From a virus, in the IMG/VR virus record IMGVR_UViG_3300028800_000001, positions 1 through 64,000 of that record: DNA of 64,000 bases, one strand, 5' to 3'. Made by a program: the position numbers and the translations under genes. The notes beneath the pieces are model-generated. The model made no database searches. It saw only the letters and a list, made by a program, of their open reading frames with translations, and was not told the origin of the DNA. Positions 9,861 to 40,638 of the stretch are shown here, piece by piece. Position 1 is the stretch's first letter. Each line of letters opens with the position of its first letter.

Positions 9861-10232
9861 TTACTGGGTGTTTCGGAACATCAAGCTAACATTTTGACCA
9901 GGGAAGAGGGTGCAGCTCAGGATGCGTGTCATCCCAAAACTGGTTGTATGAGAAACAAAACCTCCATGCACGCCATGACGCACCTTGATGTCGCGTGCCT
10001 CTTTGGCGATTTGCATCGTACCAGCAAAATCAGCATAACTCTCTTTGCTGCTGTAGGCATCTGCGATGAGCGAGGAGATATTGTAGGGCTCACCATCAAC
10101 CTCAACAAACACCTGATACTCGGTGTCAAAGATGCCAAACTCGACGCGTTTTGCTCCCATCCGGTGATACGTCAAAACGGTCTTGGAAGTGATCATACAT
10201 TGAAGTTGTTCAAAAGCAGTAGTCGTAATCAT
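9861..10232 (-). CDS. hypothetical protein (123 aa)
   Basis: Unrecognised. Beta-rich middle (VEFGIFDTEYQVFVEVDGEPY) followed by a helical segment with SKESYADFAGTMQIAKEARD. AAGGAAAAGA precedes the ATG. Confidence 0.8.
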   Translation of the reverse strand: MITTTAFEQLQCMITSKTVLTYHRMGAKRVEFGIFDTEYQVFVEVDGEPYNISSLIADAYSSKESYADFAGTMQIAKEARDIKVRHGVHGGFVSHTTSFGMTRILSCTLFPGQNVSLMFRNTQ

Positions 10233-18362: not shown

Positions 18363-18659
18363 TTAGGCAACCGCAGCCGTTTTATTGGCCGCGTGAATAC
18401 CTTGTACCACGAGATCAACGGCAAAGATGCGCGTGCGAAGCTGTGCGTTTGTCCAGCCCTCTTTGTTCATGTTCTCTAACCAAGCGCGGTGGTGGACAAA
18501 TAAGTAGTCCATGACCAAACCCCAGGCAACGGTTCTGTGCTGGTTGGTGACGCTATGCGTAGAGGCATAGGTTTGTCCGAGTAGAATGAAAGTCTGCGAA
18601 AATCTCTTGATCTGTCCAATAGTGAAAGTGTTGAGCGTCTTTTCTGCTTTGGTTCTCAT
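18363..18659 (-). CDS. hypothetical protein (98 aa)
   Basis: Unrecognised. Start at ATG 18659 (AGGAGAAAAATAC). Basic N terminus (RTKAEKTLNTFTIGQIKRF), several His/Trp residues. Monocistronic between the promoter at 18702-18756 and the 18313-18358 terminator. Confidence 0.75.
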   Translation of the reverse strand: MRTKAEKTLNTFTIGQIKRFSQTFILLGQTYASTHSVTNQHRTVAWGLVMDYLFVHHRAWLENMNKEGWTNAQLRTRIFAVDLVVQGIHAANKTAAVA

Positions 18660-18701
18660 GTATTTTTCTCCTCTTTCTTTGGTGAAACATCCTATGCAAC
18701 A

Positions 18702-18756
18702 ATCATAGGCCATTTTCTGAAAAACGTCAAGACTTTTTTCTGTGAATATTCAGAAA
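18702..18756 (-). promoter_or_regulatory. sigma70-type promoter with conserved upstream element
   Basis: -35 TTGACG (18730-18725), 17-nt spacer, -10 TATGAT (18707-18702). Element TTTCTGAATATTCACAGAAA contains the inverted pair TTTCTG...CAGAAA. Confidence 0.9.
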
Positions 18757-18898: not shown

Positions 18899-18918
18899 TC
18901 AGAAAAATATGCTATACT
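18899..18918 (+). promoter_or_regulatory. probable promoter of the repeat array
   Basis: TATACT at 18913-18918 preceded by the palindrome TTTTTCAGAAAAA (18895-18907). The -35 region is weak. Transcription would begin near 18925, at the first array unit. The same palindrome faces the divergent short-RNA promoter. Confidence 0.55.
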
Positions 18919-18955: not shown

Positions 18956-19980
18956 GTTTGAATCAGTTTATACGTAAGGCAATACAGCGGTATGAACCAA
19001 TTGTGAGGTTAGTCTAAAGAAATATGGGTGAGTAAATCTATTTGTAAGAGCATAAGATGAGAGCGAGACACCAAATTACTTGTTTCACATGACATGTTCG
19101 AGTCATTAATAGTGTTGCTTCGGTATGAGCGTACGAACCAATAAACTTGTATATCTACATCAGCGTGTGAGTCATGATGTTCGCGTTTCCTACACTCAGT
19201 ACGACTCCAATAATGTGTCCGTTCCTTATCATAGTAGGAATCTCGGTGCGTGTTTGCTCAATAGATTAGTATGAACACTTAGTACATGTTGTTTCAATTG
19301 ACAGGTGCGATCCGGTTCAGCAGCGCATCAATACTTTTGCGAGAGTCATTCTTTCTGTGAAGTGTCTTGAGAAAGGTATGAGCCCAATAGGTAGTCAAGA
19401 GCAATCTAGAAGTACGAATTCTTGAAAACGTGTTTCCATGATATATGTGTGAACCATTGTGTAGGCAATTCATCTGATTTGTCTGAGTCGCTAACAACGT
19501 TTCTCTCATTACATTTGCACGATCCAACAAAGCAGTAAGAATACCATAGAAGTGAGAATCAATATGTAGGTCTTTTCGTTCAATTCGTATGAACCATCAG
19601 GGCAGTAGTTTTTATACAAGGTGTGAGTCGCAATAATAGTTGCTTCAGGTTTGAGGATCGAGTCACCAACGCAGTATTATCAGCAACACTGAACGATTGT
19701 AAAATGATAGTTTTACCATATCGTGAGTAAGAGCCAACCTAGCCGTTGCGTCGCATAAAGGGAGCGAACGAATAGAGCAGTCAATTCGATATTGAAGTTT
19801 GAGTCTACCAGGAGTTTGTATCATGGCTGGGGCGTGAGCGTTTGAATTACTGATACTGTATAATCAAACAACAAGTATGAGGCGTGATTTTATAAAAGAC
19901 GTTCGAGCTGTTCAAAGGAGATCTTTCGAAGCTTGGGAGCGAATCGTTTTAAATGTCATTTCAATAAGCGCGTATGAAAT
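18956..19980 (+). repeat. array of ~30 degenerate 35-nt dual-box units, TIGR-like
   Basis: Unit starts fall at 18956, 18990, 19026, 19061, 19096, 19131, 19165, 19199, 19234, 19269, 19305, 19339, 19376, 19412, 19447, 19481, 19517, 19552, 19587, 19621, 19656, 19691, 19727, 19762, 19797, 19832, (19866), 19901, 19937 and 19972. Spacing is 34-37 nt, mean 35.0. Box A is GTNYGARYC, with GA at positions 5-6 in all aligned units except the decayed 19866 one. Box B starts at position 19 (GT in about 22 of 29 units, often followed by N4 TTC and A or G). Between the boxes lie about 9 and about 8 variable nt. The A core YGAR and the B core YTCR can pair. The layout of two short boxes and two ~9-nt variable segments per ~36 nt is that of TIGR guide arrays; a CRISPR would have a long exact repeat. 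No Tas/Nop protein was found in the window. Confidence 0.85.
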
Positions 19981-20011
19981 AAGAGAGAAGCAGGGGGTTT
20001 GCTTCTCTCTT
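19981..20011. terminator. bidirectional hairpin terminator
   Basis: Perfect 11-bp stem AAGAGAGAAGC / GCTTCTCTCTT with a 9-nt loop. It closes the plus-strand array and, from the other side, follows the stop of the peptidase gene at 20011. T runs are short on both sides. Confidence 0.8.
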
Positions 20012-20889
20012 TATGCAGGGGTAACAATATCGCCTTGTCCACCCCAATACTTTTCAAAGGTGGCGTAAGTCATCCACTGCATGTTGAGTCGAGAGCTGTC
20101 GGCCAGATGTACGTACTGGATGCCGCTGATTGTTTTTCCACCGATTACCACTAAGATATGTCCTCCGGTCCACTTGTAGGGCGGAAAACCAATGATGACA
20201 GGTGTCCCATTATTACCAGCGTTGACCACATCGTCAATTGTGGGATTGTTCATTTCCTGTGTCTTAAAACCAAAGTGCGAAGTGGTGTAGTCAATCCCTT
20301 GCCACTCCATGAGTCCCTGGTCGGTCGTGATTTCGTGAATACTACTTTCGTAGTTGATCACATCCGTGAGACTGAGCTTTTTTCCGTAGGCATCCATGAC
20401 CTCTTTCATGGAAGAAGCAGAACAGTCAGACGGCCACCAGTTATTATACTGATCAGTGGAGCTATAGTTGGCTGCGTTCGTCTGATCAATACGTACAAGT
20501 GCCTGGGAAGCATTGGCTGCTTTCGCAGGAGCCGCAACTGGCATCTTGACTTGTTTGGTGGTCACCACTGGCGTTGCTTTGGGCGAATTTTGTGTGACTA
20601 CCACCACGTTTTGCATCACGCCGCCATCCCAGCCAGTGATCACGCCAACCGGCCCAACTGGTCGTTGTGTCCAGGCAATAAATCCAAGAAATGTAATGCC
20701 AAAGACGATGACAAGTGCGCCATTTACCAGAAACTTCTTCAGGCGTGATGGACGGCGCAAGACGGGAAGTGGATCGGTCCTACGAACCGCAGTGCTGCGT
20801 GCAGGAACAACAGAGATAGCGCGAGACGGTGGTTCCTCAAGAATTGATTCGACCACCATCACACGCCGCGAGAGACTCGATTCTCTCAT
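20011..20889 (-). CDS. membrane-anchored C39-like cysteine peptidase (292 aa)
   Basis: Basic cytoplasmic N terminus, one membrane segment (residues ~53-73), a Thr/Pro-rich linker (100-130), then a C39-like (papain fold) domain. Catalytic Cys156 in WWPSDCSASSMKEV, His244 in WTGGHILVVIGG and Asp264 in HLADSSR are all present. The topology puts the catalytic domain outside the membrane. Such proteins cleave peptides or remodel the wall; the substrate here is unknown. It converges on the repeat array and shares its terminator, so the array does not lie in its operon. Confidence 0.85.
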   Translation of the reverse strand: MRESSLSRRVMVVESILEEPPSRAISVVPARSTAVRRTDPLPVLRRPSRLKKFLVNGALVIVFGITFLGFIAWTQRPVGPVGVITGWDGGVMQNVVVVTQNSPKATPVVTTKQVKMPVAAPAKAANASQALVRIDQTNAANYSSTDQYNNWWPSDCSASSMKEVMDAYGKKLSLTDVINYESSIHEITTDQGLMEWQGIDYTTSHFGFKTQEMNNPTIDDVVNAGNNGTPVIIGFPPYKWTGGHILVVIGGKTISGIQYVHLADSSRLNMQWMTYATFEKYWGGQGDIVTPA

Positions 20890-25180: not shown

Positions 25181-25235
25181 AGTATAGGCTTTTTTCACAA
25201 GCGCGTCAAGACTTTTTTCTAGTTATTTTCAGAAA
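25181..25235 (-). promoter_or_regulatory. sigma70-type promoter with conserved upstream element
   Basis: -35 TTGACG (25209-25204), 17-nt spacer, -10 TATACT (25186-25181). Element TTTCTGAAAATAACTAGAAA overlaps the SENN codons and stop of the HNH gene. Confidence 0.9.
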
Positions 25236-26061
25236 GGAAACGTTTGAGGCGATGAAATACGCCAGGGGAAACAGTCATGTTGTAGTCGGCAGGAAGGTCG
25301 TGCTGGTAGGCACGTTCCTGATATAGCAGGCGCGCAAGAGCATTGTAAACGAAAGCCGCTTCCTCGAAGGTCTCGTAGCTTCCACCGCTAAAAGTGCCAC
25401 CATCAATATGCAGTGCGACGCCGTATTTGGCACCCAGGCGACGAATGCCAGGAGGGAGAATGCGCAGATTGGCGCGGTGGTTATTGAGCTTGTTGCCATC
25501 AATATGACGCACACGCTGATTAAGCCAGAGTGCTTTGCCGCTCATGTGTTCTGCCACTTCGTGATGTAAATAGACATTCCCGTTATCGTTGCCAAGAGCA
25601 CGTGCACCACCATGACGTACACCGCTATACTCTTCGCTGCGAAAAACGAAGCCACGCTTATCCAGATTCCAGTGGTGCAGCGCAAAGATATCGAAGTCTT
25701 GTGCGTCAAGAAGCACTTTCTTGCCGTTATCTAAATAAATACCACTACGATCTGTTTGAAATTCAATCGCGTTTAGTTTAATGACGCCTTTGCGTTTGAG
25801 CGTATGTTGTGGTTTTGAGAGGAGCAAGTTGTCGCGTTCGCAGTTAAGCTGATCGTCATCCAGGTGCAGCACATGATAGTGCTTTCTGCGCAGCAGGCCG
25901 CTACGTTTGGCAATCTCTCTACGCAGCAAGACGTTACGACCTTGAATAGAGGCGACCACATCACCCCTGGTATTTCTCCGCCAGGGGTATGTTTCTATCA
26001 ACGCTGCGTCTTCTTCGCTCACACGCAGCACGCTTTCGTCAGGCAGCAAGAACTCGACCAT
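25219..26061 (-). CDS. protein with two HNH-type endonuclease modules (280 aa)
   Basis: Two copies of an HNH_3-like motif: HVLHLDDDQLNCERDNLLLL near 63-82 and RVRHIDGNKLNNHRANLRI in the C-terminal half. The second keeps the usual H, N and N residues; in the first the central Asn-Asn is changed, so it may be inactive. An AP2-like C-terminal region (YGVALHIDGGTFSGGSYETF) suggests a homing-endonuclease relative. ATG 26061 with AAAGGATACTG. Confidence 0.85.
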   Translation of the reverse strand: MVEFLLPDESVLRVSEEDAALIETYPWRRNTRGDVVASIQGRNVLLRREIAKRSGLLRRKHYHVLHLDDDQLNCERDNLLLSKPQHTLKRKGVIKLNAIEFQTDRSGIYLDNGKKVLLDAQDFDIFALHHWNLDKRGFVFRSEEYSGVRHGGARALGNDNGNVYLHHEVAEHMSGKALWLNQRVRHIDGNKLNNHRANLRILPPGIRRLGAKYGVALHIDGGTFSGGSYETFEEAAFVYNALARLLYQERAYQHDLPADYNMTVSPGVFHRLKRFLSENN

Positions 26062-39094: not shown

Positions 39095-39532
39095 CTACAA
39101 AGTTTTCTTTCGATTAAGTTTGACACCTTCGTTTGCAATGGGTCTTTTATTGTATCTTTCTGGCAAGTGTGACCCATTTTTATTCACTATCGCGTTTAAG
39201 CAAGGCCCAAGACGATAGATAAGCTCTTCCTCGCATGTTTGGATAAAAACATCGTGCATTGCTATTTGCTCATACTCTTTTGCCGTAATTAATTCTTTAA
39301 GTTCCCATATCTCCATCGTCCAATTAAGAGATTCTGGCATATTGTCAAGAATAATTTGACCAACCCTGTCGGGCCAGGGAAGGCGAGCGCCTTTTCCCAG
39401 GTGTTCAAGTAGTCTGGTATAAGGATGAATAGAGCGCCCAACATAGAAGATAGTATCTTCATCTCTGTAGACATAGAGGCATTGCTCCTCCTCGAATGTT
39501 TCCATTGCTTTGCCAATAGTAGTTTGTATCAT
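39095..39532 (-). CDS. GIY-YIG nuclease family protein (145 aa)
   Basis: CLYVYRDEDTIFYVGRSIHP (residues ~18-37) is the GIY-YIG start (here LYV-YVG) with the catalytic Arg after it; RLLEHLGKG follows. A conserved Glu near 110 (CEEELIYRLGPCLN) completes the usual triad. It overlaps the recombinase gene as ATGA, so a joint role in DNA rearrangement is plausible. Confidence 0.85.
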   Translation of the reverse strand: MIQTTIGKAMETFEEEQCLYVYRDEDTIFYVGRSIHPYTRLLEHLGKGARLPWPDRVGQIILDNMPESLNWTMEIWELKELITAKEYEQIAMHDVFIQTCEEELIYRLGPCLNAIVNKNGSHLPERYNKRPIANEGVKLNRKKTL

Positions 39533-40638
39533 TCGTCATCTTCCTCGCTAATAATAACCCCATCGTTTGCGATAGAGCCGCGCTTTGCATAGTAAAGGGG
39601 CATGTGCGGAGTTTTCCAGCCTCCACCACTTTGCACTTTATCAAGCGGCGTGCCATTTTTGAGTGCGTCATAGACCCAAAAGTGTCTGGCATCGTGAGGT
39701 GAGAGATTTTTTACCCCAATTGTTTCTCCAAGAGTACGAACACGGGCATTGATAGCGCGTCTCGTAATGCGTTTGTTTTCGTAGCCCAGGAAAAGTGGCC
39801 CTGCCGTTCTTGGTATTCCAGCGACGCCTTCCTTGAGCATTCCTATATAATTCTCAGCCGCAATACGCGTATGCTTTTTAAGTTTTTGTTTATCGTGAAG
39901 ATTTGTCTTTTCATGATAGATATGCACATTGCCGGTCTGAAGGGAAAAATCTTCAATATTAAGATTGGCAACTTCGCCACAGCGTAATGCATGCTCAAAA
40001 AGCAATCCCGTAAGTAAGGCATCTCTCGCGGCCATTAATTCCTGCTGTTCCTTACTTTGTTTCTTCGGCTGCGTCGTCGCTCTCTTGATTTTAAAAACTT
40101 TTGACGTTTCTATTTCGACCGCATTTTCTTTTTTATTTCCAATGCGTGTTGGCACACCATCAGCGATTCGCTCATGATCACGATTTACTGCGAGCTTTCC
40201 ACTTTTGCCTCGCACCAATTGAATGAGATGTAATTCTTCGAGAGAAAGGAGTCCGGCCTGTTCAACAAGGTTACAATACTTCTTGATCGTGGTGAGGTAG
40301 ACGCAGATCGATCCCATTGCATACCCTTTGTTTTCCAACCAGACCTGAAAGCCAGAAACCAGGGCATCATTTATACCTTCCCAACTTTCAGGAATTTCGT
40401 AGAGTTCTTCTGATGCTCTGCCAACGCCAACAGCATAGAGGTAATTGCTGAAATGAGTCAGATCATTTTTCTGCCGCCTGCGGGTGTTTTCGGTGAGTCC
40501 TTTATGGTATTCGAGAAAGATATTGCTTGCCCTTGCTTTTCTGGCAGCGTTTCCAGCGCGATACAAATCGTCAGGATACAGTTGATCTGAAACACTGGTA
40601 TCCGTGACAAAGATAGTGATCGCCTTTTCTTCTTCCAT
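39529..40638 (-). CDS. tyrosine recombinase / phage integrase (369 aa)
   Basis: N-terminal SAM-like core-binding region (about 35-140), catalytic domain with Arg I in HALRCGEVANLNIEDF, HxxR in LSPHDARHFW and a C-terminal GGGWKTPHMPLYYAK that supplies the nucleophile Tyr; the second His/Trp position is W. The C terminus is acidic (ISEEDDE). Likely integration, resolution or site-specific inversion. No attachment repeats were seen next to it. Driven by the element-type promoter at 40707-40761. Confidence 0.9.
   Translation of the reverse strand: MEEEKAITIFVTDTSVSDQLYPDDLYRAGNAARKARASNIFLEYHKGLTENTRRRQKNDLTHFSNYLYAVGVGRASEELYEIPESWEGINDALVSGFQVWLENKGYAMGSICVYLTTIKKYCNLVEQAGLLSLEELHLIQLVRGKSGKLAVNRDHERIADGVPTRIGNKKENAVEIETSKVFKIKRATTQPKKQSKEQQELMAARDALLTGLLFEHALRCGEVANLNIEDFSLQTGNVHIYHEKTNLHDKQKLKKHTRIAAENYIGMLKEGVAGIPRTAGPLFLGYENKRITRRAINARVRTLGETIGVKNLSPHDARHFWVYDALKNGTPLDKVQSGGGWKTPHMPLYYAKRGSIANDGVIISEEDDE

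Follow-up and report, generated by a model that had tools for sequence, protein, structure and literature searches.

Introduction

The TIGR-Tas systems were described in 2025 (Faure et al. 2025, PMC12045711). According to the main text of that report, TIGR arrays lie upstream and/or downstream of a tas gene, and the C and D boxes of an array match between its edge and loop repeats. Tas-dependent processing of the arrays has been published for other Tas proteins, with a host RNase suggested as a participant (PMC12045711).

Here we analyse a stretch of 64,000 nucleotides of viral DNA (hereafter the window), which corresponds to positions 1-64000 of a virus record of 327,295 bp. A first-pass annotation, made from the letters alone, had read about 1 kb of the window as a degenerate array resembling a TIGR array, of a new or orphan kind. 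We found that this array is one of three in the record which share the same boxes and unit plan, that the other two flank the only tas gene, and that adjacent edges covary, an observation which bears on guide maturation.

Results

A degenerate array with a 35-nt period

The array and its immediate surroundings comprise the following features, in window coordinates:

18363..18713, minus strand, flanking gene, no match in Pfam or NCBIfam
18910..18918, plus strand, extended -10 promoter-like element TGCTATACT, read directly, without a good -35
18956..19981, plus strand, predicted TIGR array of ~30 units (unit chain; cross-array matrix scan; neighbour-edge covariation)
19982..20010, plus strand, intrinsic-terminator-like hairpin (fold -19.7 kcal/mol, z -5.0)
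20011..20889, minus strand, flanking gene with a weak C39-like peptidase match (Pfam 22.2 bits, cut-off 24)

The true extent of the array is from 18956 to about 19981, between the minus-strand genes. Its unit starts, from 18956 to 19972, follow one another at 33-37 nt with a mean of 35.03 nt, and the recurrence of ~35-nt units over 1 kb, as originally described, is real. The autocorrelation summed at lags 35, 70 and 105 was 0.953 (z = 6.8), a sum that no dinucleotide shuffle out of 1000 reached (0.785 ± 0.025); the best single lag, taken alone, was within the largest maximum of these shuffles. The strongest test that the array is real came from an independent matrix, built only from the 70-unit array found elsewhere in the record (see below), which scored above 9 bits at 20 sites of the window array, against 0.23 expected, and recovered the array almost unit for unit.

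Each unit is composed of an edge, GTRYGARYCA (10 nt), a spacer A of 8 nt, a loop, GTNNNTTCA, which is 8-10 nt long, and a spacer B of 8 nt (10 + 8 + 9 + 8 nt). The edge is laid out as GT-RY-GA-RY-CA, with an almost invariant GA, and both edge and loop start with GT and end with CA, giving them shared C/D-like boxes. The two boxes and two variable segments per unit that had been proposed initially are present, with some corrections: the first box, given as GTNYGARYC, is the 10-nt edge; the second begins 18 nt after it in 22 of the 30 units and 17-20 nt after it in the rest, rather than at exactly 18 nt; and the variable segments are of about 8 + 8 nt, not 9 + 8. Some units have weak loops, the boxes are less uniform than those of most relatives, and the last edge is truncated at its 3' end (GTATGA).

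The array is not a CRISPR array, as its repeats are only 9-10 nt long and degenerate, compared with long near-exact repeats and ~30-nt spacers. It is not a coding repeat either, since no ORF runs across it, the longest in the region being one of 78 aa on the minus strand. Both exclusions had already been made in the first-pass annotation. Searches of Rfam returned no match, and TRF called no array at this locus.

Directly 3' of the truncated last edge, the hairpin at 19982-20010 has a 12-bp stem and a short T tract. On the other side, TGCTATACT was absent from a consensus promoter scan because the scan needs a -35; the array upstream of tasA has a similar TGCTATAGT plus a TTGCAA -35. The two neighbouring genes (20011..20889 and 18363..18713) are not part of the TIGR system, and no relatives of either were found among viral contigs.

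A single tas gene is flanked by two arrays with the same boxes

The start of the record is repeated exactly at its end, as a 127-bp direct (terminal) repeat, and the record is therefore probably a complete, circularly closed phage genome of 327 kb. It contains genes for the large terminase, the portal and the head protease, and G+C in the window is mostly 0.42-0.49. The portal gene carries an intein (record 199486-202368), and near it, outside the window, lies a gene for a TROVE/Ro60-like protein (record 202750-204648; Pfam TROVE and Ro60 vWA). Also outside the window, record 236270-237000 is an AT-rich region of ~0.7 kb, dense in AATTAATTA-like palindromes without obvious period, possibly a replication or partition site. 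Within the window, a gene for an HNH endonuclease (25219-26061, minus strand) and one for a tyrosine integrase (39529-40638, minus strand) were noted, the latter a hint of a temperate life style.

No Tas gene had been seen in the window, which is correct, as tasA lies outside it, at record 320277-321161 (an ORF of 294 aa), ~25 kb from the window array on the circle. The array is thus an orphan locally, and not in the genome as a whole. The search of the full replicon that had been recommended yielded one TasA, which scored 184 bits with the NCBIfam model NF052498 TIGR_Tas_endo (cut-off 100) and is single-copy in the whole phage genome. Sequence searches of the PDB matched it to TasR (9MTY, 1.1e-13) and TasH (1.7e-10), and an AlphaFold model built from five sequences (pLDDT 76, pTM 0.77) had only TasH or TasR chains among its ten best fold matches. 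The protein was classed as TasA because no HNH or RuvC domain match was found. A search of the genome with Pfam Nop (PF01798) gave no match, a blank which on its own would suggest that there is no Tas; it is the NCBIfam and PDB comparisons which reveal the Tas family instead. An IS110 bridge-RNA transposon was also considered and ruled out, as the IS110 model scored 24.6 bits (cut-off 140), IS110 entries in the PDB search were at 0.24 or weaker (E at least 0.24), and there was no DEDD match.

When the remainder of the genome was scanned for the period seen in the window array, a second and larger array of ~70 units came to light downstream of tasA (record about 321200-323690), and a third, small array of ~10 units lies upstream (record about 319970-320259). 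All three share the same boxes, for a total of about 110 guides. Each array leads into a coding sequence, the upstream one at the start of tasA and the downstream one at the start of the following gene (record 323701-324621, 306 aa), which overlaps the last unit; judging from this order and spacing, upstream array, tasA and downstream array look like one transcript. The gene following the 70-unit array was checked as a candidate TasParB, but it matched no family or relative and could be modelled only poorly.

At record 322387-322600 near-duplicate units are interleaved with others. Their spacer A reads agaagcca in two units and gcaagcca in one, and their spacer B reads cgattgac, taattgac and cggttaac; either the array grew as units were duplicated and then diverged, or the units represent variants of a single target.

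Neighbouring edges are complementary

In the three arrays taken together, position 6 of an edge forms a standard pair with position 3 of the next edge in 98% of cases, compared with 67% after shuffling, and position 7 with position 2 of the next edge in 85%, compared with 61%. The window array alone behaves in the same way, with 26 of 27 standard pairs at 6-3 (96%; 15.6, or 58%, in shuffles; p about 5e-5) and 23 of 27 at 7-2 (85%; 17.4, or 64%, in shuffles; p about 1e-4). All four Watson-Crick combinations (A-T, T-A, G-C and C-G) are found at 6-3, which also accepts G-T, and A-C is hardly seen. When complementarity was scored over 256 left-right position pairs, only 6-3 and 7-2 stood out (z 10.4 and 7.3), and the same two ranked highest in mutual information among all column pairs (z 31.7 and 18.0). 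The signal was absent inside the same edge and at offsets -2, -1, 2 and 3; within an edge both pairs were Watson-Crick in 7% of cases, fewer than the 17% expected (p 0.005).

Since the variable positions are kept complementary to the next edge, the degeneracy of the edges is not decay. Edge variation within an array may instead report the structure of the mature RNA: as described for the cryo-EM structure of TasR, pairs of the same kind join both ends of one processed tigRNA. Both partners of a pair would be needed in one molecule, which would put the cut at the GA, downstream of edge position 3 and upstream of position 6. Drawn from more than 1000 neighbouring edge pairs, the covariation is natural evidence for guides that are closed RNAs with their two ends paired, and placing the cut within the GA makes guide maturation directly testable by compensatory mutation.

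Related arrays follow the same rule

A search with an alignment of five TasA proteins found TasA relatives in 265 viral stretches and at eight loci in bacterial assemblies. Chains of at least 6 units were present in 82 of the 94 relative loci scanned, while chains of at least 5 units occurred in none of 40 shuffled loci. The neighbour-edge rule held in 76 distinct related arrays, with z of 11-15 and |z| below 2.4 at other offsets. Most relatives have nearly uniform edges, for example GCGAGCCA. Within the sample of relatives, edge variety was highest in the present phage (4.7 and 4.5 bits; the next had 3.8), and so was array size (~70 units; the next had 41).

Of four further TasA phage records that were read completely or almost completely, two carry multiple distal arrays, which show the same neighbour-edge pairing and in some cases lie over 10 kb away from tasA. 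The remote position of the window array is therefore recurrent and not a freak. A survey confined to tas neighbourhoods misses arrays, as the window array shows.

In Microcystis phage Mvi-JY20 (L020:4685-5010) we observed a TasA-like gene, XAI95461.1, annotated as hypothetical, together with a TIGR-like array of ~9 units. A lag-36 signal at 10181 of another locus (L024) was judged not to be an array.

Spacers and candidate targets

The spacers are poor in G+C, at 36% for the three arrays together, against 0.42-0.49 for most of the window. Among 70 related arrays, 97% have spacers that are lower in G+C than their own locus, and in related arrays spacer G+C correlates with that of the phage's own sequence (r 0.77). 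Matching the spacers to phage and plasmid sequences had been proposed in the first-pass annotation. We used the published tandem rule, spacer A followed by 0-2 nt and the reverse complement of spacer B, in which we deduced the order of the spacers from the 8-nt 3' overhangs that have been reported. Neither this rule nor three other arrangements gave an excess over re-paired spacers in the phage's own genome. In related phage sequence (~2 Mb), the spacers of this phage had one exact match where 1.0 was expected, and the spacers of the relatives had 4 in related phage loci where 5 were expected. The search in related phages has little power, as hosts and competitors are outside the set. The size of the guide set, about 110 in this phage and further ones in its relatives, provides real statistical power for target finding.

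Discussion

The TIGR interpretation put forward in the first-pass annotation is well supported: we found nearly every dual-repeat feature that can be looked for in sequence, and a Tas gene in the same genome, beside arrays of the same kind. The reading that we favour, with a probability of roughly 0.88, is that the window region is a plus-strand TIGR array, encoding a non-coding precursor which is cut into ~35-nt guides for TasA acting in trans. The array would be transcribed as a single non-coding RNA, TasA would bind this precursor, and a host RNase would cut in each edge, inside the invariant GA, to release ~35-nt tigRNAs. Each guide would be closed by R6-Y7 of one edge pairing with R2-Y3 of the next, and its conserved GT and CA boxes would be contacted by both halves of a TasA dimer supplied from 25 kb away. 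We infer from the matching boxes that TasA uses the window array in trans; contacts of TasA with G0/T1 and C8/A9 are suggested by the TasR structure, and these positions are conserved. In each guide, the two 8-nt spacers, A and B, would pair with opposite strands of the DNA, and TasA would bind, unwind and bend the target DNA. As it is without a nuclease domain, TasA probably binds and bends DNA rather than cutting it, and interference with other mobile elements is its most likely predicted role.

Could the array be a disused TIGR array which is now drifting, hence its degenerate boxes? Its boxes are indeed less uniform than those of most relatives, a few of its loops are poor and it lies far from tasA. 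However, drift would destroy the pairing between neighbouring edges, which the window array retains at its variable positions (26/27 and 23/27) together with an almost invariant GA, and distal arrays with the same pairing exist in two other phages. A decaying relic is thus largely refuted and we regard it as very unlikely. Distance from tasA has also to be weighed with regard to the partner of the array, which might be a different Tas, encoded by the host or by a helper, and TasA relatives do occur on contigs assigned to bacteria. We consider this very unlikely, as the edge and loop matrices are the same as in the arrays flanking the phage's own tasA, which is the only tas gene in its genome.

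Short spaced repeats in an intergenic region of a phage would also suit a DNA element, either iterons or a partition/centromere site for a ParB-like or replication protein, and the main text of PMC12045711 reports ParB-like genes in the vicinity of some tasA genes. Complementarity of the 3' half of an edge to the 5' half of its successor, however, suits a processed RNA and not a DNA-binding site; moreover, matching boxes flank tasA, and the window array is preceded by an extended -10 and followed by a terminator-like hairpin. A DNA element therefore seems highly improbable.

Under our preferred reading of a TIGR array serving TasA, the two variable base pairs may do more than close the guide. 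We tentatively suggest, as a possibility that is more doubtful than the array assignment itself, that in large TIGR arrays they act as a unit-specific 'key' which also directs folding and cutting, so that more than 100 nuclease-free, DNA-binding guides, part of them in remote arrays, would amount to programmable silencing. By pairing poorly within its own edge, the key would then steer each guide towards the right fold and cut, even where an array has ~70 guides.

Comparison with known systems

The closest relatives are the TIGR-TasA dual-repeat systems, as presented in the main text of PMC12045711. They have in common with the present locus a solo-Nop Tas, a phage location and a unit of ~36 nt, an alternation of edge and loop repeats, of 8-12 nt, with two short spacers and shared C/D-like boxes, and a truncated last edge followed by a terminator. 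They differ in size, since the published TIGR-TasA arrays usually have 5-15 units and here there are about 110 in three arrays, and in position, the published arrays lying beside tasA while one of those described here is ~25 kb away. We took the tas-adjacent position as the location reported in PMC12045711 and not as a condition for membership. A further difference concerns the repeats, which in the published main text are conserved within a locus, with covariation reported between arrays, whereas here the edges vary from unit to unit and keep their pairing to the next edge. The novelty of the remote array and of the unit-to-unit pairing was judged against that main text and one review.

The boxes had been thought to be unlike known ones, which is true for the loop and for the first two bases of the edge, but the core YGARYCA is as in Salicola phage CGphi29 (AGCGAGCCA). 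In the TIGR-TasH system of that phage (NC_020844) the edge core, NGCGAGCCA, fits YGARYCA and the spacers are of 8 + 8 nt; in contrast to the present system, its Tas is a TasH with an HNH domain, and a single array of ~11 nearly uniform units, with the loop AAGACAACCA, adjoins tasH. The IMG/VR phage records with distal arrays, G003 (88 kb) and G005 (82 kb), share with our phage a TasA, a distal location of arrays (several in each record) and the neighbour-edge pairing, but are smaller phages with 36-nt units and edges mostly starting with GA rather than GT. Stem-loop TIGR arrays, of which the locus of Gordonia phage Morrissey gp42 appears to be an example, resemble it in the unit-specific pairing of ends around dual spacers; their stems, as seen by eye, are long and palindromic, while here the closing helix supported by covariation has only 2 bp. 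We would classify the present locus as a TIGR-TasA system in which one array is remote, the edges vary to an extreme degree and the guides number about 110.
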